Assembly (NCBI RefSeq): GCF_000403135.1
Contig: NZ_AQPN01000020.1
Span: 1 to 64,000, forward strand
DNA from: Arcticibacter svalbardensis MN12-7
GTDB lineage: Bacteria; Bacteroidota; Bacteroidia; Sphingobacteriales; Sphingobacteriaceae
Direction: 5' to 3'
DNA length: 64,000 nucleotides
Positions 6,692 to 63,681 of this stretch are shown in pieces; the first letter of the stretch is position 1; each line of letters starts with the position of its first letter. A program made the position numbers and the translations under genes. The notes below the pieces were generated by a model. The model was not told the DNA's origin. It searched no databases and worked only from the letters and a program-made list of their open reading frames with translations.

Positions 6692-6718
6692 TAAAAAAAG
6701 GGCCTTACAGCAGCCCTT
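6692..6718 (-). terminator. Intrinsic terminator overlapping the end of the radC-like gene
   Basis: On the minus strand AAGGGC (complement of 6712-6717) pairs with GCCCTT (complement of 6699-6704), followed by seven T (complement of 6692-6698). The stem straddles the stop codon of the RadC-like gene and probably ends the long minus-strand transcript. Confidence 0.8.
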
Positions 6719-7175
6719 CATCAGCAAATGATATAAATCCTTCACTGGTAATAATCAAATGATCAAGTACGGACATATCTAAGAATCCTGCAGCCTGTAT
6801 CAGCTTTCTTGTTAGATTCAGATCCGCCTGGCTTGGTCTAAAACTACCTGAAGGATGATTATGCGCCAGTATAACCGAACTTGCATTGGCTTTCAGCGCG
6901 GCTCCGAAGATTACTTTAGGATCTGCTACTGTTCCGGCTACACCTCCAGTGGATACATTGAAAATACCCAGTACTTTGTTGGCGCGATTTAAAAATAGCA
7001 CTTTAAATTCTTCAATATATTCCATTTTTCCGGCATCCCAGTTCTGTACAAATATAGTGTAGGCGTCTTTTGAACTGCCTATCGCTGGTCTTTCAGATGC
7101 CTTGAATTTAGGTGTATAACTGATAGCAATTTCTGATACCTGGAACAATGAGAGCTGATTTTTGAGCTTTTCCAT
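6705..7175 (-). CDS. RadC-like JAB/MPN domain protein
   Basis: A 156-residue protein with the JAMM metal motif of the RadC family: Glu56, then His105-x-His107 and Asp118 (HxH-x10-D) in AHNHPSGSFRPSQADL. It lacks the N-terminal helix-hairpin-helix region of full-length RadC (about 220 residues), as is usual for the short copies carried on Bacteroidetes conjugative transposons and plasmids. The role is unproven; the family name DNA repair protein is historical. The gene is the last of the minus-strand conjugation block and is separated from the preceding gene by a structured 300-base interval, so it may have its own promoter. Confidence 0.92.
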   Translation of the reverse strand: MEKLKNQLSLFQVSEIAISYTPKFKASERPAIGSSKDAYTIFVQNWDAGKMEYIEEFKVLFLNRANKVLGIFNVSTGGVAGTVADPKVIFGAALKANASSVILAHNHPSGSFRPSQADLNLTRKLIQAAGFLDMSVLDHLIITSEGFISFADEGLL

Positions 7176-7210
7176 AACGTTTGATTTTAAATGATTAAAA
7201 AATTAATTAT

Positions 7211-7350
7211 GGCGCTCTGGCCGGCTTCAGGAGGGACTAAGGCAAGGTGGAGGTGCACTAAAATGTGGAGGCTCCGCCCTTGCGGATACCCATTTTATTG
7301 CACACTACCTTGGCAAAGCGAACCGTGTCCTGACGGTGCCGAACTTGGTG
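7211..7350 (-). ncRNA. Highly structured intergenic element upstream of the radC-like gene
   Basis: The interval contains nested and adjacent inverted repeats. A long imperfect stem joins 7241-7265 with 7291-7314 (blocks CAAGGT, GTGCA and TAAAATG pair). Inside its loop TCCGC-CCTT-GCGGA (7273-7286) forms a second hairpin. Immediately after the long stem ACCGT-GTCCTG-ACGGT (7322-7337) forms a third. The stretch is more GC-rich than other intergenic DNA nearby and lacks a coding frame. It could be a structured leader or small RNA, a protein-binding site, or a transfer-related site. Strand and function are inferred from position only. Confidence 0.4.
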
Positions 7351-7420
7351 CAGATAATTAATAATTAATTCATTCCTGATCCCATGGGGGTGTCAAACGG
7401 CTACTCAAAATACCGGATAC

Positions 7421-8569: not shown

Positions 8570-9385
8570 TTATTGGGAAAAGGTACTGGCTTTCAGAATA
8601 TCTTTATTGCGCAGGCTTATGTACAGGTTACGTTCCCCGCCCTTTTCCAACAAACTAATATTTAGCTTTTTCTGTTCTGCAAGCGTAAATTGGGGTAAAG
8701 CAAATACAAATGCGCAACTACTTCCAGGTTGAACAACTTTACCGTCATTTGGGTAGATATAAAGCGGCGAAAGTTCCCGCTGCTGGATTGCGGTGCGCTT
8801 CCCTCTTCTAATGTCCGAGAGGGAAAATCGGACAGAGGCTGGCTCATAATTAAGAGGCGATCTGTTGCTCAGTTCTAAACGAAAAAAAAGCGTATTTTCG
8901 AATATAAAAATGCCATTAAGCACCGCTGTAACTAGCCCTGATTTATCCTTTATGCTGATATTTTTATCTGCACCGATCACTTTTTTTGATAGACTGCTTA
9001 GATCTGCATCATTTAATGGCGGCCCTTTTAAGGTAACCATGGGAGTTTTCGCCTGCCCGGATGAAAGCAGGAAAACCGTTTGAGTTGGTTCAGCCTGATA
9101 GCTGAGCTCAAATTCATAAAGTTCTCCACCACGGGTAATAACCGTTAGGTTTGTTGGTTTAAAGCTTTGCCTGGCCGCTTTAACACGCAGCACATTCGAT
9201 GCTTCCGGTACAATCTGCGCCAGAACATCTGCAGATCCACGGTCTGCACTTTTAATGGGGTATGGAAAAACGAGCGTGGTTGTCCTTCCGGTTGTAAGGG
9301 CTAATGGCAGGATGCGCTGTGCCCATGATTGCATAGACTCCATGACCAGAATCATGGCAGAAAAAAAGATGATGAATCGGTTCAT
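8570..9385 (-). CDS. traN: Conjugative transposon protein TraN (DUF4138)
   Basis: A 271-residue secreted or outer-membrane-associated component of the Bacteroidetes type IV transfer apparatus. A signal peptide (residues 1-22, ending SWAQ) is followed by the family start RILPLALTTGRTTTLVFPYP, then SADRGSADVLAQIVPEASNVLRVKAA and a beta-rich C-terminal half, as in DUF4138/TraN proteins. It follows traM after 44 bases in the minus-strand operon. Length is normal to slightly short for the family. Confidence 0.92.
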   Translation of the reverse strand: MNRFIIFFSAMILVMESMQSWAQRILPLALTTGRTTTLVFPYPIKSADRGSADVLAQIVPEASNVLRVKAARQSFKPTNLTVITRGGELYEFELSYQAEPTQTVFLLSSGQAKTPMVTLKGPPLNDADLSSLSKKVIGADKNISIKDKSGLVTAVLNGIFIFENTLFFRLELSNRSPLNYEPASVRFSLSDIRRGKRTAIQQRELSPLYIYPNDGKVVQPGSSCAFVFALPQFTLAEQKKLNISLLEKGGERNLYISLRNKDILKASTFSQ

Positions 9386-9429
9386 AAGTAAACTGTTTAA
9401 TGATTTAAATTATACCTATTTCATTAAGG

Positions 9430-10707
9430 TTATCGTTGCTGGTTATTATTCACCAGCAATACGTGGTAACCGGCCCGGATATCCACTTTGACCTGCTTCA
9501 TTTTTTTTCGAAAAAGCCCTTTCGCTGTTTGAATACCTGCATTTGCAACCTGAGCGGTGAGCGAAGGGTCCAGAGCACTCAACTCCAGGCCTTGCATCGC
9601 CTGCTCTGTTCCTTGTTTTGCAGCATCCATACCCATTACGCCAGGTACCCCTATTCCGGGCAATCCGTCCAGGTCGTATACCGAAAGAGAAACCGGCAGA
9701 ATAGTCGTCCCGGTAAGCAGGCTGCTAATGCTGATCATAAGCCTGTCGCCAGTGAGACTGCAGATTCCGTAAAGAAATCCACCCGAAGGAACCTGTATTC
9801 CCTTCACATACATATCGGTAAGCAACTGAATTTTTACGCTGGCCCCTGTTGTCAGCTTTTGATCTTCGGCAATCATGGCTTCTACCGCCAATCCGGCACC
9901 AACACCTGCTGACGCTACATCTTCCAACCCATAAAAACCGGAATAAACGCCCAAAGAGGAGGCCGAATAAATCCCTGCACTATCCGGCTGTACCTCTTTT
10001 GCTTCCAGCAATGTAATTTCCGGTTGTTCAGAAAAAGCCTGTACAGGAAAAGCCTGGGTGCCGTTTTTGACTGACTTATCTCTGATCCGCTGCTGAACCC
10101 GCTCAGGGTGCTGAATATCCAGGATCTTTTCCATGACGTCATTGATCTGCTTCATTTCAGGATCCTGCCCATCCTCTTTGCCCATATTCTGCATGAGTGA
10201 TTCAAGCCGGTCAACGTTGCGGGTAAAGTCAGGATCAGCAGCGGCAACCTTCTTTACTCCCTGATCAGAAGAAACGGTTTCAGGGCTTTTGCTAATTTCC
10301 TGATTGATCTGTTGAAGCTTCAGCCGGATCCGGCTTTCCTGTGCATCAGGCTGAGTGGCTAACGCCGGGCTCGCCTTCTCCCTGGGCATTTCGCTGTCCA
10401 GGGCATCATTGGTTTCAGAAAATGCGCTAAGCTGACCGAGCACTCCTCCTCCCGATACCTTGGATTTCATCGAATCCTTTTTGGCCTGTTCATACAAGGA
10501 CATTTTATCGAGCTGTTTGTCTCCCAGCTGAGCAGGCGGCAGTTCGTGGTTAAATCCACTAACGGACTGTTGGCTTCCCATGATTTCGGGGTTCTTACCC
10601 CCGCCTAACGCCCAGAAAGCCAGCGTGAGAAAAGGAAGAATCAGCAGGGGCAGCATGAGGTAAAATTTACGCTGCCGCAGAAATTGTTCTGAATGTGTTG
10701 TTTCCAT
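9430..10707 (-). CDS. traM: Conjugative transposon protein TraM
   Basis: A 425-residue VirB10-like bitopic protein of the mating-pore complex. Residues about 16-34 form a single transmembrane helix after a short cytoplasmic N-terminus, residues 40-230 are a low-complexity periplasmic linker rich in Ser, Gln, Asp and Lys, and residues about 230-425 form the conserved C-terminal domain (LLEAKEVQPDSAGIYSAS, then ASVKIQLLTDMYVKGIQVPS and VKVDIRAGYHVLLVN at the end). This arrangement is typical of TraM of CTnDOT-type elements. It lies 15 bases after traL. Confidence 0.93.
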   Translation of the reverse strand: METTHSEQFLRQRKFYLMLPLLILPFLTLAFWALGGGKNPEIMGSQQSVSGFNHELPPAQLGDKQLDKMSLYEQAKKDSMKSKVSGGGVLGQLSAFSETNDALDSEMPREKASPALATQPDAQESRIRLKLQQINQEISKSPETVSSDQGVKKVAAADPDFTRNVDRLESLMQNMGKEDGQDPEMKQINDVMEKILDIQHPERVQQRIRDKSVKNGTQAFPVQAFSEQPEITLLEAKEVQPDSAGIYSASSLGVYSGFYGLEDVASAGVGAGLAVEAMIAEDQKLTTGASVKIQLLTDMYVKGIQVPSGGFLYGICSLTGDRLMISISSLLTGTTILPVSLSVYDLDGLPGIGVPGVMGMDAAKQGTEQAMQGLELSALDPSLTAQVANAGIQTAKGLFRKKMKQVKVDIRAGYHVLLVNNNQQR

Positions 10708-10722
10708 TTTTATATGATTAAA

Positions 10723-10947
10723 TTATTTGAATCCCTTGATCAGGAGATAAAGGCAACAGGCAGCGAAAGCAAGACCTGTCGCCAGTAATAGAATAAGACG
10801 CAGCGACGGAGGTATCCGGAGTATCCCCTCATTCAGAAATGAGGCTATCCGCTGTTGAATCCTGATTATAAAGCTGGCAATAGTACCGGCAAGCCGCTCG
10901 TGTTCTATGGCATACTTTGTTTGTTGAGTCCGGTTAAATAATTTCAT
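10723..10947 (-). CDS. traL: Small membrane protein at the TraL position
   Basis: A 74-residue protein with an amphipathic N-terminal half and one transmembrane helix at about residues 51-70 (LILLLATGLAFAACCLYLLI). Size, topology and location between traK and traM fit the TraL/DUF3989 family of Bacteroidetes conjugative transposons. Sequence identity to the family is not strong enough by eye to be certain, so the call rests mainly on synteny. It starts three bases after the traK stop. Confidence 0.75.
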   Translation of the reverse strand: MKLFNRTQQTKYAIEHERLAGTIASFIIRIQQRIASFLNEGILRIPPSLRLILLLATGLAFAACCLYLLIKGFK

Positions 10948-10950
10948 CCT

Positions 10951-11568
10951 TTATCTTTTTCTGTCTGGTAAATCTTTATTTTCCAAAGTTGACCAGCGCT
11001 CAATCAGGAAGCCATGCGGATTATGGTCGCTTCGGGAGATATGCCGCAAATAGCCCTGAGTCACTAAGGAACGGTAAAGCAGGGAGCTGGAACGGATCAG
11101 TTTCTGCGTGGCATAACAGGTGAAAAAAAACGGGTATTGATCCATATCCAGGCGGATACTGTCCACTGTTATTTCCTGACTGATGTTCCCGGAAATAAGG
11201 CTTGCATAATAACCGCTCTCCCTCAGATTATCGTATTGGGCTTTTGCTGATCCATCAGCCAGATACAAGGCTTTAGTCAGGTTGGAAAGGATCACTTTTT
11301 CATCCGGATCCAATGAGAAAAACCATTGATGAAACATACTGATATGATCCCTGGCCTCTACCGGTATATTGTCTTTCCGATCGGCAGAAAAGGCTTCGAT
11401 GGCTTTACCGTTGGCCAGGATATAGATGCGTTGCTGAGCAGAAGCTACCATTTGGTAACTCTTAAATACAGCATACAAACTTAGTGTCATACAGACTAAC
11501 AACAGTACGATGCTGAAAGCTTTGATGTGCTTAAAAGCAGAGTCGATATTTTTGAGATGTGAAAACAT
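10951..11568 (-). CDS. traK: Conjugative transposon protein TraK
   Basis: A 205-residue VirB8-like bitopic inner-membrane protein. The N-terminus FSHLKNIDSAFKHIKAFSIV and the helix at residues about 17-36, followed by QMVASAQQRIYILANGKAIEA, are characteristic of TraK. The remainder is the periplasmic domain. I place the start at the ATG at 11568, which gives the typical family N-terminus and a 28-base gap after traJ; an upstream in-frame start at 11685 would overlap traJ by about 90 bases and adds residues unlike the family. Confidence 0.92.
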   Translation of the reverse strand: MFSHLKNIDSAFKHIKAFSIVLLLVCMTLSLYAVFKSYQMVASAQQRIYILANGKAIEAFSADRKDNIPVEARDHISMFHQWFFSLDPDEKVILSNLTKALYLADGSAKAQYDNLRESGYYASLISGNISQEITVDSIRLDMDQYPFFFTCYATQKLIRSSSLLYRSLVTQGYLRHISRSDHNPHGFLIERWSTLENKDLPDRKR

Positions 11569-11596
11569 AAAACCTGACTTAGTTGAATTGACTTGT

Positions 11597-12790
11597 TTAA
11601 TTACCTCTGAGTTTATCCTGCATATAACCGGATTTTCCTGAACCTCCTCCTGACTGGCCTGCTCCTGGAGGACTTGAGTGACCATTCTGGCCCTTGAAGC
11701 TGTTCATAATCTGACCCGCTCCGTTCATGACCGAATGTCCTGCAGAGATGGTTTTATTTCCACCATAAGCCATGATTGCGCTAACTTTCTGCAACAGGGC
11801 ATTCCCTCCCCCGGCATGGACGATGTACCCAGCTACATTAGGTACGGTGAAGTAGCCTGCAGTTCCAATAATGAGGAAGATCAGGTATCCGGTGTCCGTG
11901 GCACTAAAAAAAGTATCCCCGGACTGACCAATCTGCGATAAATCCAGTTTGATCATATTTTCCTGTATTTTCCCGGCAATGCTACCGAATATATTGGCCA
12001 CCGGAAGCCAAAGAAACACGTTGACGTAGCGGGCGATCCAGACCGTCAGCGTATGCTGAAAGCCATCAAAGACCGCGAAGCCAAGGACAAGCGGTCCCAT
12101 AATTGCCAGCACAATCAGATAAAAGGTGCGGATGGTATTAATACAGAGCGCAGCCGCTGCATAGACCAGCTGGAGCACTTCGGACATCCATTGTTTGATG
12201 GAGTTGCGGAAGCTATAAGAGGCTTTGGCCATGGCGAACTTGACATCATTTCCAATACTCTCCAGCATTCCTTCTCCATCCTGATCATCCGGATGGCTGT
12301 ATTTATACCACTTTTCCCGGTCACCTTCTCCATCCTGACCGGCATACATTTCCCAGACATCGGATTTCATAATGGCCTCTTCCTTCTTTTTTAATAATAC
12401 CGCGATCGCTTTATCGGAATCCTTGACCATCGCCGCCGTTGCCGTCACGGTGGGTTGAAGGACAGCGTTCATCAGTGCCAGGACAGAAGGAAAAAGCAGG
12501 ATGGCCAATCCCAAAGCAAATGGACGCAATAAGGGATAAAAATCAATGGCCTCAGCTGTTGCCATGCTGCGCCATACACGCGAGGCGATATACCAGAGCG
12601 CAGCAAAACCGGCAATCCCGCGCCCGACGCTGATCAGCCTGGAACAAAGCGGAATCATCTCTGTATAGACCTGATCCAACACGCTCTGCATGCTCCGGAT
12701 CTCGCCTGATAGGCCCTCTGCTTTTACGAACTGGGGTAATAGAAGCCCGAATAGGGAAAACAGAAGAATTATTTTAAATGACTTTTTCAT
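11597..12790 (-). CDS. traJ: Conjugative transposon protein TraJ
   Basis: A 397-residue polytopic inner-membrane protein, VirB6-like, of the transfer channel. A signal-like first segment (residues 1-24) is followed by a helix pair around residues 55-110, a charged central loop with DGEGDREKWYKYSHPDDQDG, and a second group of membrane helices from about 205 to 330. The C-terminus is a Gly/Ser-rich tail. The periplasmic start SGEIRSMQSVLDQVYTEM and the helices around AIMGPLVLGFAVF are typical of TraJ in CTnDOT-type elements. Confidence 0.93.
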   Translation of the reverse strand: MKKSFKIILLFSLFGLLLPQFVKAEGLSGEIRSMQSVLDQVYTEMIPLCSRLISVGRGIAGFAALWYIASRVWRSMATAEAIDFYPLLRPFALGLAILLFPSVLALMNAVLQPTVTATAAMVKDSDKAIAVLLKKKEEAIMKSDVWEMYAGQDGEGDREKWYKYSHPDDQDGEGMLESIGNDVKFAMAKASYSFRNSIKQWMSEVLQLVYAAAALCINTIRTFYLIVLAIMGPLVLGFAVFDGFQHTLTVWIARYVNVFLWLPVANIFGSIAGKIQENMIKLDLSQIGQSGDTFFSATDTGYLIFLIIGTAGYFTVPNVAGYIVHAGGGNALLQKVSAIMAYGGNKTISAGHSVMNGAGQIMNSFKGQNGHSSPPGAGQSGGGSGKSGYMQDKLRGN

Positions 12791-12799
12791 ACCTGTTGA

Positions 12800-13456
12800 T
12801 TAATAGTTCGTGATTTCTGTTTGGTACAGGTCCTGTAGCGTCCGGGTATCCCCTTTTTCTTTGGCCCGTTGTAAAGAAATGATCTTTGCCTGGTTATTGA
12901 AGTGGCGTAAAAACTGCAATTTATCTTCGGTGTCCTTAAATATCCGGTCAATGGCTTCCAGCCGCTCATCATCTGACATCCGAAGCGTTCCTGCTGTCAG
13001 GATAAGAGCTAGTTCATCCAGGCCTTTCATGCTCTGATCAAACAGCTTGTCGTACACCCGGGACAAATAGTCCAACTCGGTGCTGCTAAAATTCCCCGAA
13101 AGACGGAAGACTTTAAAAGCCTTTTTATATTCGGATACTATCCGGCCCTGATACGAGATGATATCAGCTACCCTCCTGTATTTCTTCACCTGTGGATTTA
13201 CTGCCAGCAATCCATCCAGAAACACCTCATGCATACTGAAGTTTCCCTGAGAAACGTCGCGAACGGCGTTGTAGCCCTTACTTAAAATGGCATATCCGGA
13301 CTTCATTTCGGAAAGTATATTTTTAAACTGAGTCAACTTTTCAAAATTCAGCAGAAGCTGCTGGGCTTCGGTAGATTGTGAGCGTACGGGAGAAGCCCAA
13401 AAACAGGGTAATGCTAAAAGGAATAAAAGGACGTTTTTATTGGGTCTCATAATCAT
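12800..13456 (-). CDS. Secreted TraI-like conjugation protein (copy 3)
   Basis: A 218-residue protein with a signal peptide (residues 1-26, VRSQS) and an otherwise helical sequence. It shares the layout of the two genes transcribed before it: an early LxxFxKLxQFKNIL segment with a GY(A/N) element, SRVYDKLFDQSMKGLDELALIL, LRMSDDERLEAIDRIF and FLRHFNNQAKIISLQRAKEKG near the end. These positions align with MEEVYSGILDASLKNMDQIM and FNNQNVMLSLQRSKS in the third-upstream gene, so the three are diverged paralogs of the Bacteroidetes TraI family. It overlaps the upstream gene by 20 bases and ends 9 bases before traJ. Confidence 0.82.
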   Translation of the reverse strand: MIMRPNKNVLLFLLALPCFWASPVRSQSTEAQQLLLNFEKLTQFKNILSEMKSGYAILSKGYNAVRDVSQGNFSMHEVFLDGLLAVNPQVKKYRRVADIISYQGRIVSEYKKAFKVFRLSGNFSSTELDYLSRVYDKLFDQSMKGLDELALILTAGTLRMSDDERLEAIDRIFKDTEDKLQFLRHFNNQAKIISLQRAKEKGDTRTLQDLYQTEITNY

Positions 13457-14099
13457 TCGTGTTTAGTGGTATTCCATAAAGCGCAGCTGTACCTTGCAGC
13501 TCACTTTGCCCGTGTTGTCTTTGCTGGGAAAGGAGTGCTACTTCGTTGGCAAAACTTTTACTGAAACGAAATTTATCTGCAATAGACAGGTATGTCTTCT
13601 GCAAACGGTCCAATCGTTCGCCGTCACTCAAGTCCAGCTTAGATGTACTGATGAGCAGCAGATAGTCTTCCAGTTCCTGATCACATGCCCTGAGCAAATC
13701 AGTCCTGACCTTTTCGGTATATTCCCGTTCAGCAGGCTTCAGGTTCGTAACCTTCCTTACTGAATTCATATTCCGCATGATTCCCGCCTGCCAACCTAGC
13801 AGTTCTACAGCAGAAATACTATTGGCTACCATCGGATTAACCGTTTTTAAAGAGGCAAAAAACGTTTTGTGTAATACCTGTTCATCTCCGGTAATTGCCC
13901 CGAACAACCCCAATCCGCTTTCCGCTATTTCATATCCCTTTTTTAAATAGCCGGTATAGACATTTAAGGCGGCAATCTGGGCAAGCAGGTATTTTTTTTG
14001 TGTTTTCTTTTGTTTAAAAAATTCATCCCAGGTTTGGGCTGAGCCATGCAGAGAAATCCCAGAAAACAGAAGCAGTAGTACAAACATTTTCTTATTCAT
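13437..14099 (-). CDS. Secreted TraI-like conjugation protein (copy 2)
   Basis: A 220-residue protein with a signal peptide ending HGSAQ (about residue 22). The mature part begins WDEFFKQKKTQKKYLLAQIA and contains NVYTGYLKKGYEIAESGLGL. It has the same helical plan as its two neighbours, with KLDLSDGERLDRLQKTY and FRFSKSFANEVALLSQQRQ corresponding to the DDERLEAIDRIF and NNQAKIISLQRA positions of copy 3. Bacteroidetes transfer operons often carry one or two such proteins next to traI; the exact role is unknown, presumably periplasmic and part of pore assembly. Start and end overlap or nearly touch neighbours, consistent with translational coupling. Confidence 0.82.
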   Translation of the reverse strand: MNKKMFVLLLLFSGISLHGSAQTWDEFFKQKKTQKKYLLAQIAALNVYTGYLKKGYEIAESGLGLFGAITGDEQVLHKTFFASLKTVNPMVANSISAVELLGWQAGIMRNMNSVRKVTNLKPAEREYTEKVRTDLLRACDQELEDYLLLISTSKLDLSDGERLDRLQKTYLSIADKFRFSKSFANEVALLSQQRQHGQSELQGTAALYGIPLNTNDYETQ

Positions 14100-14107
14100 C
14101 GTTTTAA

Positions 14108-14791
14108 CTAGTTTATGCCATAAAGCCTTTTTACTGAATTGATCTCGGCCGTTGATTTTGAACGCTGTAAGCTCAACATGACATTTTGATTATTGAACTG
14201 CTTCAAATCCGTGTAGTTGGTTTGAATTTCGTCTGCAGCCGCATTGATAATCTTCAGTCGCTGGGCATCATTCATACTGGTATTAAAGGCGTTCAGTACC
14301 AACATGATCTGATCCATATTTTTTAAACTGGCATCCAGAATTCCGGAATACACTTCTTCCATATAATTCAACTCTTTGAGGGTAAAATGTTCATCCTGTC
14401 GAATGAGGTTCCATGCCCTGTTGTATTCATTTACAAGTGCCAGTTGTAAGGAGGTCATTTCTTTGATGCGCTGATAGTAGGAAATGGCCGCTTTGACTTT
14501 CCAGAGTTCCTGGAAATAGTTCCCATACAATTCCTTTTGCCGTTCAGACCATCCGGCAATTTCTTGTAGTTTCAGTTTTGAAAGCTGATTTTCCAGCACT
14601 TTCTGGGCATTTTGCAGCCAGATTGTTTCATTTTGCATCCGCTGGATCTTTAGATCAACCGCCTTGATCACTTTTTTAACGCCGGCTTTGATCACCTCCA
14701 GCACAGCGATCTGGGCATTACTCTCCTGTGAGGGAAAAGAAACCAGAAGGAGCATCAGACTGATGGGCATGATAATTCTGTAGTGTCTCAT
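14108..14791 (-). CDS. traI: Conjugal transfer protein TraI (Bacteroidetes type)
   Basis: A 227-residue secreted protein. After a signal peptide (residues 1-26, ending SNAQ) it begins IAVLEVIKAGVKKVIKAVDL, then KIQRMQNETIWLQNAQKVLEN, the standard N-terminus of the TraI family in CTnDOT-like elements. It continues as a helical protein with WNLIRQDEHFTLKELNYMEE and ends LKQFNNQNVMLSLQRSKS. This TraI is unrelated to the F-plasmid relaxase of the same name. It follows the VirB4-type ATPase gene traG by 23 bases and is the first of three related genes in a row. Confidence 0.9.
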   Translation of the reverse strand: MRHYRIIMPISLMLLLVSFPSQESNAQIAVLEVIKAGVKKVIKAVDLKIQRMQNETIWLQNAQKVLENQLSKLKLQEIAGWSERQKELYGNYFQELWKVKAAISYYQRIKEMTSLQLALVNEYNRAWNLIRQDEHFTLKELNYMEEVYSGILDASLKNMDQIMLVLNAFNTSMNDAQRLKIINAAADEIQTNYTDLKQFNNQNVMLSLQRSKSTAEINSVKRLYGIN

Positions 14792-14814
14792 ATTCGTTTC
14801 AATTAATAAGTTCG

Positions 14815-17334
14815 TTATCCGGCAAGCCCTGCTTTTTCTTTCCTTATTTCAGCAGCAAGCCTGGCAATGCCCTTTTCCATACTGCCCTGTTCCAGGGCAT
14901 ACCGCATGACCTTTATTTTTTCCGTTTCTTCGGTGGTATAGGCAAAATATTCTTCGGTGGATACTTCAGTTCGGAATACCTTACTTTTCTGTCCTCCCAG
15001 GCTGATGAATACTTCCCGGTAATTCAGCCTAGGGTCGTTGGCTTTGTTAATGGAAAGAATTTGTGCTTTTTCCTTTTCGGTCAGCCCCAGTAGCTCCTGG
15101 ATTTGCTCAAACTTGTTTTGGTATTTGCTCTGGTCCAGCAGTATCTTACAATCACTATTGTTGATAATAGCCTGTTTTACTATCGGGGAGCTGATGATAT
15201 CTTCTACTTCCTGGGTCACAACGATGGCCTCACCGAAAAACTTACGCACCGTTTTAAAGAGATATTTAATATACTGAGCCATACCCTCTTTAGCTATCGC
15301 TTTCCAAGCTTCTTCGATTAGAATCATCTTGCGTACCCCTTTCAGCTTCCTCATTTTGGAAATAAACACTTCCATAATGATCAGGGTCACTACCGGAAAG
15401 AGCACTGGATGATCTTTCACATTGTCCAGCTCGAAGACAATGAAACGCTCTTTCAGCAGGTTTAGGTTCTCTCTGGAATTCAACAGGTAGTCAAACTCGC
15501 CTCCCTGAAAATAGGGGTTTAGTACATAAAGGAAATTAGCCAAATCGAATTCTTTCTCCTTCACTTGCCGCTCGAGCAGCCTGGCCGAATAGCCATCCCG
15601 AACGAAGGCGTAAAAGGAGTTGAAGCAGGGAAATACATCTGGATTTAAAGCCAGAAACTCAAAAAACAGCGTTACAGCATCCGAAACGGCTACGTATTCC
15701 GAACGGCTATACAGTTCATCATCTTTTTTCCATAGAGCCAGCAGCAATGTTTTAATACTTTCCTTCTTTTCTGTATCCAGCACATCTCCTTCCGAAAGGA
15801 AAAAGGGATTAAAGCAGATTGGCTTCTTTTCTTCATAAGTAAAGTAATAACCACCTACAAGATCACAAAGTCCTTTGTAACTGTGACCAACATCTACCAG
15901 CACAATATGAGTACCCATTTCGTAGTAACTGCGCACCATATGATTGGTAAAAAAGGATTTCCCGCTACCTGAAGGTCCCAGGATAAACTTATTGCGGTTG
16001 CTGATTAGGCCTAGTTTAACGGGTTCATCGGAGATATCTACCTGTACCGGTCTACCGTTAAGCCGCTCGCCCAGCCGAAAGGCTGAAGGACTTTTGGAAG
16101 AACGGTAGCCAGATTCCAGGTTAAGAAAACAGGTGGCCTGCTCCAAAAAAGTATCGAAGGTATCGTTCATCGGAAAGTCTGCTTCATTACCGGGCAATCC
16201 GGACCAGAAGATCTGCGCGGCCCCATCTGTTTCCAGTTTAGGACTGGCATCCATCTGTACCAGCGCAGAGCTAACGAGCGTTTTCAATTCCGGCAAGCTG
16301 GCCTTATCTTCGGTCCACACGAGCAGGTTTACATGGGCTTTAACAGGAAGCCGCTGACCAGAGATCGCTTCATTCAGAAAGTCATGTGTGGCGTCTCTTG
16401 CAATCGAATTTTCACGGGAATAGGCCGACAGTGATTGCAGGCGCAATCTTTTACTTTCCAGCGTTTTCATTGTTTTTGCCGCATCCTGAATAAAAATATA
16501 CTGGTTCATGATATGATTGCAAGGCAGTAACAGCCCTATTGAAGAAGCAAATCCGGTGCTAAAACGAGTCTTATCTGTACTGTATTTATCGTAATTGACC
16601 CTTGATCCGCAAAATCCGGGAAGATCTTCTGCATCTGCCAATGTGTAAAGCAGGCAATTCTTGTCCCCCACCCGAATTTCTTGGTTGAGATGAATATCCT
16701 GAAGTACAGGCAGACCATCCTGCCCTTGCAGGAAACAATATTTTTCCAATATCCCTGCTTTCTCTTTTGATCCGCTAAGCTCATCATTACCGAGTCTTCG
16801 CAGCTGAACAAATCCGCTGTCAGTCAGAATGCGGCAAAATTGCCCGGCCTTGTCTGAAAAATCATCTAACAGGATTTGATCTATCCCCTGCCTGGGTACA
16901 ATAGAGGAGCGCAGTATATTGGAAAATGAAGAACTTGAAAGCCGCCTTCCTGCAGGTTGTTTAGTCAGCATGATCGTACAGCTGTGATCCAGATATTTCC
17001 GCCCTAAAAAAAAGCGGTCACTTGACTGATTAAGAAAAGACTTCCTTCCCTGATCTTTTGGCTGAAATGAACGCTCGCTGAAAAAATCCTGTTTGTGAAA
17101 TATCGAATGTTTAGGCAATACCTTGATCGCCTTAATTAGTATCTGGTGAAACTCTTCATATTCTTTATCTGAAAGTGAAAAGATTTCGGGTAATATAGCC
17201 TGATAAGCAAAAGTAATGTCTCCCTGCATACTGAGTATAGCATCATGTTCTAATTTGGAAATAGGGAGCATCTTTTCGATGGGGATACCTTTCCGGCCTG
17301 AGCCTGCTGAATAAAAAACGTTACTGCTCTGCAT
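14815..17334 (-). CDS. traG: TraG, VirB4-type conjugation ATPase
   Basis: An 839-residue cytoplasmic ATPase that powers assembly of the transfer channel. Walker A is GPSGSGKS at residues 453-460, followed by HMVRSYYEMGTHIVLVDVGH and a Walker B region around MILIEEAWKAIAKEGMAQYI with the adjoining KTVRKFFGEAIVVTQEVEDI. The N-terminal half (residues 1-430) is the TraG/VirB4 domain, including KMLPISKLEHDAILSMQGDI near the start. Length is typical for TraG of Bacteroidetes elements (about 800-840). The ATG overlaps the end of traF by 14 bases. Confidence 0.95.
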   Translation of the reverse strand: MQSSNVFYSAGSGRKGIPIEKMLPISKLEHDAILSMQGDITFAYQAILPEIFSLSDKEYEEFHQILIKAIKVLPKHSIFHKQDFFSERSFQPKDQGRKSFLNQSSDRFFLGRKYLDHSCTIMLTKQPAGRRLSSSSFSNILRSSIVPRQGIDQILLDDFSDKAGQFCRILTDSGFVQLRRLGNDELSGSKEKAGILEKYCFLQGQDGLPVLQDIHLNQEIRVGDKNCLLYTLADAEDLPGFCGSRVNYDKYSTDKTRFSTGFASSIGLLLPCNHIMNQYIFIQDAAKTMKTLESKRLRLQSLSAYSRENSIARDATHDFLNEAISGQRLPVKAHVNLLVWTEDKASLPELKTLVSSALVQMDASPKLETDGAAQIFWSGLPGNEADFPMNDTFDTFLEQATCFLNLESGYRSSKSPSAFRLGERLNGRPVQVDISDEPVKLGLISNRNKFILGPSGSGKSFFTNHMVRSYYEMGTHIVLVDVGHSYKGLCDLVGGYYFTYEEKKPICFNPFFLSEGDVLDTEKKESIKTLLLALWKKDDELYSRSEYVAVSDAVTLFFEFLALNPDVFPCFNSFYAFVRDGYSARLLERQVKEKEFDLANFLYVLNPYFQGGEFDYLLNSRENLNLLKERFIVFELDNVKDHPVLFPVVTLIIMEVFISKMRKLKGVRKMILIEEAWKAIAKEGMAQYIKYLFKTVRKFFGEAIVVTQEVEDIISSPIVKQAIINNSDCKILLDQSKYQNKFEQIQELLGLTEKEKAQILSINKANDPRLNYREVFISLGGQKSKVFRTEVSTEEYFAYTTEETEKIKVMRYALEQGSMEKGIARLAAEIRKEKAGLAG

Positions 17335-60141: not shown

Positions 60142-62337
60142 TCACCTTCTGGTATATTTTCCTGACTTTTTAGCTCCTGAAAAAACAGCCAGTCCAGCCT
60201 CCTTCAACTTCTGAAGGTCTTTCTTAACCAGAGCTAAATTCATATTCAAACCAGAGGCCATATCTTGAAGGCCTATTCCGTTATATATTTTCATTAATTC
60301 AAGCTCTTTAAGCAGCCGATCCTTAACCACGGGATCCATTGCTTCAGGAATAAGCTCTTCTATTGTTGCGGGCTTCTTTTGATCTGCTGGTTCCGGTTCA
60401 ATGAGGACTTCTTCTACCAAGTTCAAAATATCCTGCTTAATCATCAGATAATTTTCCTGTATTGACGCACTAGTTACCTTTCTTATCTCTGGCATTTCCT
60501 TATATTGCTTTTCCTCCTTTGCTAAGACAGGATGGTCATTAATGATCTCTGAGTGAAACGCTTTAAGTTTAATTTTTTGTTCCGGATTATCGGCTACCAT
60601 CCCAACGAATTCACCTGAAGACAAAGATGAGATGGTAGAAGGAGGTACAGCAGAATCCAGTTGGGATGAACGACTGACGGATGTATCCGAACTGTTCACA
60701 GAGATACTGTTCCGTTCTTGAATTATTTTACCGAAGCGCTCGGAAAGCTGCTTAGCCGTGTCCCCAGTAACCTGACCACTAATTACATTTCCTGCTATAT
60801 TTAAAATGACTTCGGCTTGCTCTCTTCCGTAATCTTTCTTTAACTGGCTATAGTCCTGGATAGCAAGGGTCGCTGCTACCTTATTGGAGCGGGCAGTAGC
60901 AATCAGGCTGTCCATTCCATTAAAATAAATCGTTGGAAACTCATCAAAGAGAATGCTTGATTTCAATTTACCTTTCTGATTGACCAGCTTGATCATCCGG
61001 GAGATATAAAGCGAAAGCACTGCACCGTATACTTGCTGCTTTTGCGGGTTGTTTCCCATACAGATAATTTTCGGTTTGGCTGGATTATTCAGGTCTAATG
61101 AAAAGTCATTACCAGAAAGCACAAAATACAGTTGAGGGCTGGATAGTCTAGCCATGCTAATCTTGGCGCTTGCCACCTGCCCTTCCAGCTGATCCGTTGC
61201 CTGATTTTTCCATGCTGAGATGAAGGGGTTAATCAGCACCTCTATCTCGGGCTCTGTCTGCAGTACAGGAAAGAGCTTAATATACTCCAATTGCATCAGC
61301 TCAATCACATGTGGAAGCGTGCAATACTTCCCATCCTGATGTTTTCGTAGAAACCAAATTATGGCAGTAACGAAATTGATAGGCGATTCCACAAAGAAGT
61401 CACCCTGCTTTTTGATCCATTCCCTGTTGAGTCCCATCATAATGGTGCGTGAAGCTTCAGTTGCATCCGTGATATCCGACATCGTATCCGGGTCTAGAGG
61501 ATTACAACGGTGTGTATGAGAAAGCCGATCAAAATTAATGACGTAGAATTCAGGCATTACTTCATACTGCTGGGTGTGCAGGTGCAGTGTATTGTAGGCG
61601 ATACGCGAAAGATCATCATATTTAAAGTCATATATAAACATGCTGAAACCTTTCCTGATATGCTGGGTGATCACATGACGAATAACAAAATAAGATTTTC
61701 CTGCTCCCGGTGTACCCAAAACAAGTAAAGCCCGGAAGGGATTAATAATATTGATCCAGCTCTTCCTTTGCTTCCCTTTCAGGTTATACAGTGCAGGAAG
61801 ATTGATCGAATATTCATTTTCCAAAAGCCGTTCTTCCTGGGGGAAGGACTCATTTTGGGTATTGAAAACATCGTTGCTGAGTTTTATTCTTATAAGCCTG
61901 CTAAGATGGGTTCCTCCCGTCAACACCAGAATGTAACCCAAGACAGTAATAGATATATAAATTCCAGCCTGCATATTCAGGCTATTGGATGATATAATCC
62001 TTAAAATCCAATGACTGCAAACAAACAAGACAATGCCAGTTCCTGCGATCCAGAATATACCCGTTATTTTCATCTTTTCATCCTTCTTTCCATTCGCCCC
62101 AATCAGAGAAACCAGTAAAAAAAGCAACACTACCAGCTTTGCTGAGATAACAGACTGAAATATCCCCATCTGGGCTACATGCATAAGCAGCCTATCAAAT
62201 AGCACTTCCGTAAAACCAGCGGCTTGAAAGACATTGTAACAGTACAAATAAAAATGTATGGATAGAATCAACAAACTGAGCAGTCTGGTAAAGTCAATAA
62301 TTTTACGAAGTCCTTGAGTATTTTCCCCGGTTTGCAT
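60142..62337 (-). CDS. mobC: MobC-type coupling protein (VirD4/TraG-like ATPase)
   Basis: A 731-residue type IV coupling protein that connects the relaxosome to the transfer channel. The N-terminal 145 residues contain several membrane helices; the motor domain has Walker A GTPGAGKS (residues 208-215) and Walker B around SILFDEFPTIYFNGMDSLIA. A central QVTGDTAKQLSERFGKIIQE and a C-terminal helical tail (QDMASGLNMNLALVKKDLQK) follow, as in Bacteroidetes MobC proteins. This MobC is unrelated to the small RSF1010 protein of the same name. It follows the relaxase gene by 15 bases. Confidence 0.93.
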   Translation of the reverse strand: MQTGENTQGLRKIIDFTRLLSLLILSIHFYLYCYNVFQAAGFTEVLFDRLLMHVAQMGIFQSVISAKLVVLLFLLVSLIGANGKKDEKMKITGIFWIAGTGIVLFVCSHWILRIISSNSLNMQAGIYISITVLGYILVLTGGTHLSRLIRIKLSNDVFNTQNESFPQEERLLENEYSINLPALYNLKGKQRKSWINIINPFRALLVLGTPGAGKSYFVIRHVITQHIRKGFSMFIYDFKYDDLSRIAYNTLHLHTQQYEVMPEFYVINFDRLSHTHRCNPLDPDTMSDITDATEASRTIMMGLNREWIKKQGDFFVESPINFVTAIIWFLRKHQDGKYCTLPHVIELMQLEYIKLFPVLQTEPEIEVLINPFISAWKNQATDQLEGQVASAKISMARLSSPQLYFVLSGNDFSLDLNNPAKPKIICMGNNPQKQQVYGAVLSLYISRMIKLVNQKGKLKSSILFDEFPTIYFNGMDSLIATARSNKVAATLAIQDYSQLKKDYGREQAEVILNIAGNVISGQVTGDTAKQLSERFGKIIQERNSISVNSSDTSVSRSSQLDSAVPPSTISSLSSGEFVGMVADNPEQKIKLKAFHSEIINDHPVLAKEEKQYKEMPEIRKVTSASIQENYLMIKQDILNLVEEVLIEPEPADQKKPATIEELIPEAMDPVVKDRLLKELELMKIYNGIGLQDMASGLNMNLALVKKDLQKLKEAGLAVFSGAKKSGKYTRR

Positions 62338-62352
62338 AATTCAATTAGATCG

Positions 62353-63681
62353 TTAATGGTGCATCCTTTTTTTTCTTTTACGTTTGAGTTTTGGATCAGG
62401 CCCCTGTTTATCCTCCCATTGTGGTAAAAAAAGTTCATCGGGAAGTGATTCCCTGGTTTTGTTTAATGCCACTATACCTCTTAGAGGATTCTGATCTTTT
62501 TGATGGAAATCCGCACCTGATGGATCCAATTGTTTTTTGCCCGGTTCTGCTACATTATTGAGACTAGTACTTTCAATTCTCTGCCATCCAGTTAAGGATT
62601 TTTCCATCCTGTCATCTGTTATATCCTGTTTAGCAAACCGATCATGAATAGCGGCAGCACTAAATTCTTTTCCAATATCACTGCCTTTGAAAGCGGCCTT
62701 ATGTTTTTGGTCAATATAGGTAACTCCATAAGTAAATCCTTTATCATTTGTATGAAATAGTACTTCGACATCGATCTTCCTACATTCTTTCATCCAGTCA
62801 CCTCGTGTGAGGATAAGTGATGAATCCAGTATTTGGCTCAGCCGCTCCTTGAGCTCTTCCTTCATCGGTTTGCGTATTTCCTTGTTCTGCATAAACCGTT
62901 CTTCCAGACTAGCTAATGTTGGTTTGCCATAAATGATGCTTGCTTTGATGGGGACGCCAATCTTGTTTCCCTTTTCATCCATAAGACTATAGATCAATCC
63001 TTTTTTTTCAAACATCTGCGAATCTGCCTTTCCCCGATCGGCTATAACATTAAATTTTCTCAGGATAGCATTTAATTCGGTCAGACTAGTGTAGTTATAG
63101 CCAGATGTAACGGCTGCAACAATATCAGTAACCGCTCTTTTTGTCTCGGCCTTGCCGTAACTCACCTTATTCAGATCTAAGGGTTTGAGCCTGATGTTTT
63201 CTTCCTGCTTTTTACTTTCGGCTTTAATCAGTCCAAATTCAATCTCTAAGTCCTTTCTGGCTGTTTCTGACCTGGTCCTTCCGATGTTGTGCAAATCTAT
63301 CCGGCTTCCATCGGAACGAATAATCGTACTGACCAGATGAATATGATCATGGGCGGCATCACGATGACGGTAAACCAGGAAAGGCTGATCGCCGAAGCCT
63401 ATCTTTTCCATATAGGCAGAAGCAATCTGCTGCAATAATTCATCATCCGGTTTTTCTGATGGATCAAAGTTGAGTGAGATATGCAGCGTATTTGTTTTTA
63501 CTTTTGGATTCAATTCCATCAGACCTTCGAAACGAGAAAGCTTTTCATAAAAGTTCAGCTCCTGTGCCTCCCTTCCATATCCGGAAGCACCAATACAGGC
63601 CGCCTTCCCCTGCCCGACTTTATGTTCATTATAATTCAACACACCCAATATCCGTTTACCGATCTTTATTTTTGCAACCAT
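62353..63681 (-). CDS. mobB: Relaxase / mobilization nuclease (MobB-type)
   Basis: A 442-residue DNA relaxase that nicks oriT and pilots the DNA strand. The MobA/VirD2-type domain fills residues 1-150: KIKIGKRILGVLNYNEHKV with the probable catalytic Tyr17, and the metal-binding histidines in YRHRDAAHDHIHLVS (His106, His111, His113, His115). A helical C-terminal region with basic tail (KLKRKRKKRMHH) follows. oriT is expected upstream of mobA, outside the window. The start overlaps the end of mobA by 16 bases. Confidence 0.94.
   Translation of the reverse strand: MVAKIKIGKRILGVLNYNEHKVGQGKAACIGASGYGREAQELNFYEKLSRFEGLMELNPKVKTNTLHISLNFDPSEKPDDELLQQIASAYMEKIGFGDQPFLVYRHRDAAHDHIHLVSTIIRSDGSRIDLHNIGRTRSETARKDLEIEFGLIKAESKKQEENIRLKPLDLNKVSYGKAETKRAVTDIVAAVTSGYNYTSLTELNAILRKFNVIADRGKADSQMFEKKGLIYSLMDEKGNKIGVPIKASIIYGKPTLASLEERFMQNKEIRKPMKEELKERLSQILDSSLILTRGDWMKECRKIDVEVLFHTNDKGFTYGVTYIDQKHKAAFKGSDIGKEFSAAAIHDRFAKQDITDDRMEKSLTGWQRIESTSLNNVAEPGKKQLDPSGADFHQKDQNPLRGIVALNKTRESLPDELFLPQWEDKQGPDPKLKRKRKKRMHH

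Follow-up and report, generated by a model that had tools for sequence, protein, structure and literature searches.

Our study describes a conserved imperfect hairpin directly 5' of a short radC gene, which is probably a single-stranded-DNA promoter of the Frpo kind, recognized by a Bacteroidota sigma factor and switching on establishment genes in the recipient of a conjugative element. The element lies in the window, by which we mean the whole 64 kb stretch of DNA that was analysed. The hairpin is real and conserved, and it is best read as folded DNA and not as RNA; the conserved fold, the strand that folds, the geometry of the promoter-like boxes and the context of genes and strands were established by computation, and are presented here before the model that we build on them.

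An imperfect hairpin between the tra genes and radC

The window carries the genes of a conjugative element, including a relaxase, a coupling protein, tra genes and a short radC, all of them on the minus strand (Table 1). Because the tra genes and radC share this strand, the element lies 5' of radC and past the last tra-side gene, which is where an earlier reading of the window, made from the sequence only, had placed it. The core stem of that sequence-only reading is present letter for letter and proves to be real: RNA folding of positions 7200-7360 gives z-scores of -3.84 on the plus strand and -3.64 on the minus strand, single-stranded-DNA folding of positions 7190-7375 gives -5.13 and -4.14, and on each strand in each analysis none of 200 shuffles is as stable. 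The element reaches further than was first drawn, being closed by a pair of outer AT-rich arms. A second hairpin 3' of the main stem, previously taken as a separate structure, does exist, and the predicted folds merge it with the main stem as a section of one long imperfect stem.

Table 1. Features of the folded element and of its gene neighbourhood, in window positions.
Feature	Position	Strand	Basis
Whole folded element	7190-7374	+ (best-folding strand, opposite radC, presumed transferred)	inverted arms, covariation, stability (DNA z -5.13)
Outer AT-rich arm, gene (template) side	7190-7210	+	inverted repeat with 7354-7374, 81% complementary
Outer AT-rich arm, distal side	7354-7374	+	inverted repeat with 7190-7210
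Core stem, template-side arm	7241-7265	+	stem check and covariation
Core stem, non-template arm	7291-7314	+	stem check and covariation
-33-like box CTTG (relatives mostly TTTG or CTTG)	7309-7312	+	
One-sided bulge that would be extruded; GCAAAGC here, GCGNAGC in 24 of the 30 best-scoring copies	7313-7322	+	
-7-like box GAACTTGG, 4 of 6 consensus letters (relatives mostly TAnnTTTG or GAACTTTG)	7341-7348	+	
Predicted transcription start region, 5' UTR about 35 nt	7208-7212	-	predicted with the -7 box at -12 to -5
radC, a short RadC-like gene with a JAB domain only, predicted to be transcribed from the element	6705-7175	-	PF04002, E 4.9e-37
tra genes TraN/DUF4138, TraM, TraK, TraJ, TraG	8570-17334	- (as radC)	
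Coupling protein (T4CP)	60142-62337	-	PF02534, PF14293
MobB-like relaxase	62353-63681	-	PF03432 over cut-off; NF041325 MobB 290.7 bits, cut-off of 400 not reached

Elsewhere on the contig of the window, to the right of the mobilization genes (L162, 4352-10230), lies a set of genes for DUF262-like, ATPase-like and DNA cytosine methyltransferase-like proteins, as judged by eye, which may be defence or restriction cargo.

The element occurs once in its own genome (one model match), where the other 15 BLAST matches span only 14-22 bases at E 0.7 or worse; it is therefore not a member of a scattered simple repeat family, a possibility against which the sequence-only reading had warned.

The fold is conserved by compensatory change

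A BLAST search of 150 related genomes returned 16 further copies (E <= 3.3e-7) in 12 genomes. Together with one weaker match (L030) these make 17 copies, every one of which lies directly 5' of a radC gene or a radC remnant. Two weak BLAST neighbours (L029 and L031) with no radC were taken as chance, and searches of the plasmids and phages collections gave no DNA relatives of the window copy.

An alignment of 16 copies, including that of the window and leaving out one degenerate copy (L024) and one identical within the element to another (L049, identical to L023), has standard pairs in 86.5% of its pair cells. Changes on both sides of a pair, the compensatory changes that the sequence-only reading had proposed to look for in homologues, occur in 23 of 44 pairs, and 95 cells carry such a change against 37 (sd 4.7) in shuffles. 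Structures slid along the alignment as a control drop to 40-49% paired.

A covariance model built from this alignment finds matches in 51 of the 251 genomes of the family, Sphingobacteriaceae, at E <= 0.01; across the phylum it matches four of 375 genomes at E <= 0.001, its own genome among the four, with no match at that threshold in the other 371. The family genomes gave 81 model-match rows, nine of which are not included in later counts. The set of 71 copies used below derives from 76 model matches in 61 stretches, after four opposite-strand duplicates and one partial match were dropped. Two loci are unusual in their arrangement: one copy (L046, 1501-1669) shows perfect pairing in place of the usual internal loop, as though one arm were a copy of the other, and one short contig (L097, 7974-8134 and 12409-12571) carries two element-plus-radC units that face each other.

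Genes downstream and orientation towards conjugation genes

A simple search for open reading frames (ORFs) finds a downstream gene in 58 of the 71 copies. RadC is by far the most common product (40), followed by N6-methylase-like (6) and ArdC-like (5) proteins and by small or single families (7). The search finds no downstream ORF in the remaining 13, although a radC match is present downstream of three of them, truncated or interrupted in two. Eight low-scoring copies (L081, L082, L083, L085, L087, L130, L134 and L136) are without an ATG-started ORF of at least 50 amino acids close downstream, and may precede very small genes or genes with other start codons. Several copies can also share one stretch: at L080 three copies within about 2.3 kb precede three small genes, one of them coding for a DUF6876 protein, and radC and a gene judged by eye to be UmuC-like are close by; in Cesiribacter sp. 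SM1 (L223) radC and a DUF2958 gene are each preceded by a copy.

The element and its gene keep an almost constant orientation towards the conjugation genes on the same stretch, scored as matches to tra, coupling, relaxase and tra-side DUF proteins. These markers lie on the strand of the downstream gene in 80 of 81 element-marker pairs, or for 28 of 29 elements when counted by element, the exception being a TraG match 9.7 kb away; relaxase-like matches (9/9) and coupling proteins (11/11) are co-oriented throughout. In the F plasmid most leading-region genes are oriented as traM, and the leading genes of ColIb-P9 share the direction of the relaxase genes nikA and nikB and not that of most of the tra/trb genes shown, so that co-orientation with the relaxase is the more telling part of this result. 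The relaxase gene usually enters the recipient last, and it is from this rule, and not from a mapped nic, that we infer the transferred strand to be the template of radC. Two replicons sit badly with a strict leading-region location: on G253:C2 (88 kb) and G286:C2 (60 kb) some 28 and 24 kb, respectively, separate the copies from the relaxase-like match, the copies lying further along the presumed direction of entry.

The strand opposite the gene folds more stably

With DNA parameters the strand opposite the downstream gene is the more stable one in 69 of 71 copies (mean 4.1 kcal/mol). RNA parameters give the same preference in 68 of 71, and because it holds with both sets the preference alone is no proof of DNA. 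The wobble pairs lie on this strand as well. At the stem positions of the coding strand, G-T combinations number 21 against 56 A-C in the 33 best matches and 8 against 23 in the 16-copy alignment, with a weak asymmetry of 41 against 56 in the 43 lower alignment rows; since an A-C combination corresponds to G-T on the complementary strand, it is the strand opposite the gene that carries the wobble.

A further indication comes from the one-sided bulge. Among the 30 copies that score above 110 bits, 24 have the sequence GCGNAGC there, read on the strand opposite the gene. Position N is A in 12 of these copies, C in 6, T in 5 and G in 1, all four bases thus occurring; another of the 30 reads GCGACAGC. 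The other 41 copies, below 110 bits, contain GCGNAGC anywhere in two cases only, and the window's own copy departs from it (Table 1). GNA and GNNA loops closed by G-C pairs are described as extraordinarily stable DNA hairpins, with 78 deg C given for GCGAAGC (PMC4686876), and we therefore take the motif as a mark of folded DNA. The motif also occurs, as GCGAAGC or GCGGAGC, in another large hairpin that precedes short radC genes, on the strand opposite to them, at two further loci (L184 and L185), where the covariance model finds no match.

These observations bear directly on the proposal that the element is an RNA leader of radC on the minus strand, whether riboswitch-like, a thermometer or a protein-binding 5' UTR. 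Such a leader would account for strong covariation directly 5' of a same-strand gene, and it was our first idea once the covariation had been seen; it was dropped because the asymmetry of the wobble pairs, the stability and the GCGNAGC bulge indicate the other strand. The coding strand, which the RNA would represent, is the less stable one under either set of parameters and would hold far fewer G-U than A-C combinations in its 33 best copies, genes unrelated to radC are also preceded by the fold, and Rfam yields no match over the element at the gathering cut-off. A regulatory leader of radC in the form of RNA, one of three options offered by the sequence-only reading, is thus not favoured, and we consider it unlikely.

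The sole Rfam match in the window at the gathering cut-off is a DUF805b RNA (RF02914; 22208-22242, 41 bits). A relaxed scan (E up to 10) gave a CRISPR-repeat match beside the element at E 8.5, and a scan of the 17 relatives' loci (E up to 1) gave two that overlap the element, at E 0.59 to a microRNA family and at E 0.23 to a small Cajal body RNA; the former is put down to chance, as are the latter two, which are far below gathering scores.

The predicted fold brings two promoter-like boxes to a constant spacing

If the folded strand were read towards radC, its distal arm would be the non-template strand and its gene-side arm, which is continuous with the radC template, would be the template. 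On the folding strand a TTTG-like box (mostly TTTG or CTTG), which we take to be the -33 box of Bacteroidota, lies within the paired non-template arm, and a TAnnTTTG-like box lies close to the base of the hairpin. The -33 and -7 boxes of Bacteroidota promoters are some 19-21 apart. TAnnTTTG at -12 to -5 is reported as the sigma-A consensus of Flavobacterium psychrophilum (PMC9723704), and changing the TAnnTTTG box is reported to abolish activity in Bacteroides (PMC4747536).

Measured along the template arm of the predicted fold, the spacing of the two boxes is 19-22 in 55 of 59 measurable copies, whereas the linear spacing in the same copies ranges from 18 to 59 and falls within 19-22 in only 19; the count uses the closest paired TT[TG] box that is at least 17 away along the template arm, and leaves out the 12 of 71 copies that have no measurable box pair. 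Extra bases thus gather on one arm, and the arm that would be read keeps its length. The -7 columns are part of the model that was used to collect the copies, so that the conservation of the boxes themselves is inflated and partly circular; this applies less to the template-arm spacing, which stays constant as the linear distance varies. Unpaired positions make up 56% of the -7 box and 37% of the element as a whole, and the box forms an open bubble in 32 of 68 copies. A model-free scan of 1.5 Mb for this geometry passes 42 of 1618 candidate boxes against 9 in shuffled flanks, in stretches that are rich in model matches, so that the figure is not a genome-wide rate.

The boxes do not serve a divergent gene, since they are followed by a divergent ORF start in only 10 of 68 copies, where the background rate is 0.17. 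The coding strand has promoter-like matches in 8 of 71 copies. A linear TTG-N17-23-TAnnTTTG arrangement is present on the folding strand in 12 of 71, where the boxes could also work in double-stranded DNA and would point away from the gene; many low-scoring copies likewise have a linear spacing of about 21-22 already and could act in double strands. Two of the three copies at L080 (H56 and H57) have no -7-like box by the test applied. The copy in the window has weak boxes and a template-arm spacing of 24, not 21, in its individual fold, and with these imperfect boxes and its GCAAAGC bulge it may be a weak promoter.

Short and long radC genes as controls

A comparison based on the RadC protein separates genes with and without the element. 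Of 80 RadC loci from named genomes, 55 were typed as short or long, with two of the short assignments (L239 and L278) uncertain. Upstream of the short radC genes the covariance model finds a match in 14 of 27 cases (11 at E <= 0.001), and upstream of the long ones, which are presumably chromosomal, in 0 of 28; together with the BLAST copies, all 5' of radC, this bears out the suggestion in the sequence-only reading that the element might recur before radC-type genes. The geometry test, applied upstream of the same genes, passes 9 of 27 short and 0 of 28 long. Three of these passes are without a model match (L240, L242 and L243) and come from a Lentimicrobiaceae MAG and a Bacteroidetes MAG.

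A second set was selected from the radC sites found and comprises 17 short genes, three of them already model-matched, and 20 long ones. Upstream of the short genes the model matches in 5 of 17, and the geometry passes on the expected strand in 6 of 17 and fails in the remaining 11, with no pass among the 17 on the opposite strand; upstream of the long genes the model matches none and the geometry passes 2 of 20, at odd places. A model search of radC loci on Pontibacter, Bacteroides, Pseudomonas and E. coli plasmids gave no match.

Among these model-negative loci, a Bacteroides xylanisolvens plasmid has a long imperfect hairpin (-39.8 kcal/mol, DNA) before its JAB gene (L215, before 5818), and a Pontibacter plasmid has radC and then an ArdC-like gene, both directed towards mobC, in a leading-region-like layout (L214, 6001-12462). 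In pNDM-HK a DUF3085 gene lies directly before the JAB gene (L217, 3472-4405), a pairing described in PMC12826799. The plasmids collection holds RadC/JAB relatives in 2284 plasmid records, 1645 of them typed as conjugative, a frequency that fits with a role of plasmid-type RadC in conjugation.

A model for expression from the entering strand

Our structural and comparative data suggest a model in which the conjugative element enters the recipient as a single strand, and one long imperfect hairpin is formed by the strand opposite radC. From the non-template arm a bulge of some ten bases, which in most of the closest copies carries the GCGNAGC minihairpin, would be extruded and would thereby place the TTTG-like -33 box and the TAnnTTTG-like -7 box some 20 base pairs apart, so that RNA polymerase could transcribe radC at once from the folded strand. 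Synthesis of the second strand would remove the hairpin and turn the promoter off, as in the duplex the boxes of this bulge class would be about 28-32 apart and would point away from radC. Transfer of the folding strand, its use by RNA polymerase, early expression of radC in the recipient and a contribution of RadC to establishment are steps that we infer from the fold, the boxes and the gene context. Of the options in the sequence-only reading, a DNA site used in transfer comes nearest to this model, as a promoter on the transferred strand and not as an oriT.

The same anatomy could belong to a single-strand initiation site, in which the folded strand recruits RNA polymerase or primase to prime the second strand and expression of radC is secondary. 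Frpo is described as doing both, and the title of the Frpo paper names both functions; the repeated copies 5' of different genes, three within about 2.3 kb at L080, suit gene expression better, and we hold priming as the main function to be quite unlikely. A small RNA or antisense RNA from the plus strand, the remaining option of the earlier reading, would agree with the better folding of that strand, RNA parameters included, but the plus-strand boxes lie near its 3' end, so that transcription would leave the element and not cross it, and GCGNAGC is a DNA-type hairpin; this reading is very unlikely. A mobile hairpin repeat or recombination site (REP, attC or IS200-end like), to which an imperfect hairpin beside mobile-element genes might point, was dropped after the single-copy result and is extremely unlikely, the copies being fixed 5' of a gene and no attC-type core being seen by eye.

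Returning to a promoter on the transferred strand, we lean towards the wider view that Bacteroidota conjugative elements have their own family of single-stranded promoters, in which folding sets the box spacing by extruding from 0 to nearly 40 bases, and that the genes behind them, RadC/JAB first among them, serve establishment or anti-defence, so that the element would be a signpost for more such genes. If true, this would explain how such elements could express protective genes on entry, would give plasmid-type RadC a testable role and would provide a sequence handle for finding antidefence genes in Bacteroidota.

Comparison with known systems

The radC motif of Rfam (RF01754) resembles the element in being a conserved structure named after radC, and it also precedes antirestriction, methylase and integrase genes. 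Its covariance model gives no match to the element, at the gathering cut-off or at E up to 10, or to the 17 relatives' loci at E up to 1. Unlike the element, it is listed for Proteobacteria (PMC2864571). The same source treats the STAXI motif, for which its authors suggested single-stranded DNA as a possible form and which is found near SSB and antirestriction genes (PMC2864571); STAXI consists of tandem pseudoknots where the element is a single long stem, and no such Rfam family was matched. The establishment-gene regulatory sequences (EGeRS) of pLS20 are likewise repeated sequences upstream of establishment genes, but their authors reject a single-strand promoter, the transferred strand there being the non-template one (PMC8708921).

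The bench-tested single-stranded promoters that we found in the literature are those of the enterobacterial plasmids F and ColIb-P9, and a literature search for such promoters in Bacteroidota, with subscription journals mostly outside its scope, had none among the matches listed. A survey of leading regions located promoters by similarity to five known Frpo/ssi sequences and, in four islands, by means of sigma-70 boxes (PMC11541004). The words Bacteroid-, RadC and ArdC are absent from its main text, and it places antidefence genes that are among the most prevalent leading-region families on the transferred strand (PMC11541004). In F DNA that is single-stranded, the Frpo hairpins reconstitute -10 and -35 boxes, and early expression in the recipient is described as depending on them (PMC9849209).

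Stretches of R100 and ColIb-P9 were put through the Rfam scan, and that of ColIb-P9 also through the model search. The F plasmid stretch 5' of ssb also folds into one long imperfect hairpin; as its -35 and -10 boxes cannot be assigned from sequence alone, we claim likeness to Frpo for the overall shape only. The window copy finds no match at E 0.01 in the plasmids collection, which holds F. The element is best explained as working like Frpo, with no sequence membership of the Frpo family found.

With Frpo and ssi of F and ColIb-P9, in Enterobacterales, the element has in common an imperfect hairpin that lies on the strand presumed to be transferred and immediately precedes establishment genes (putative ones here), host promoter boxes rebuilt by the fold (as predicted here) and the presence of several copies on some elements. 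It differs from them in having the -33 and -7 boxes of Bacteroidota in place of -35 and -10 boxes, in a box spacing that would be set by an extruded bulge or GNA minihairpin, and in its occurrence mainly in one Bacteroidota family.
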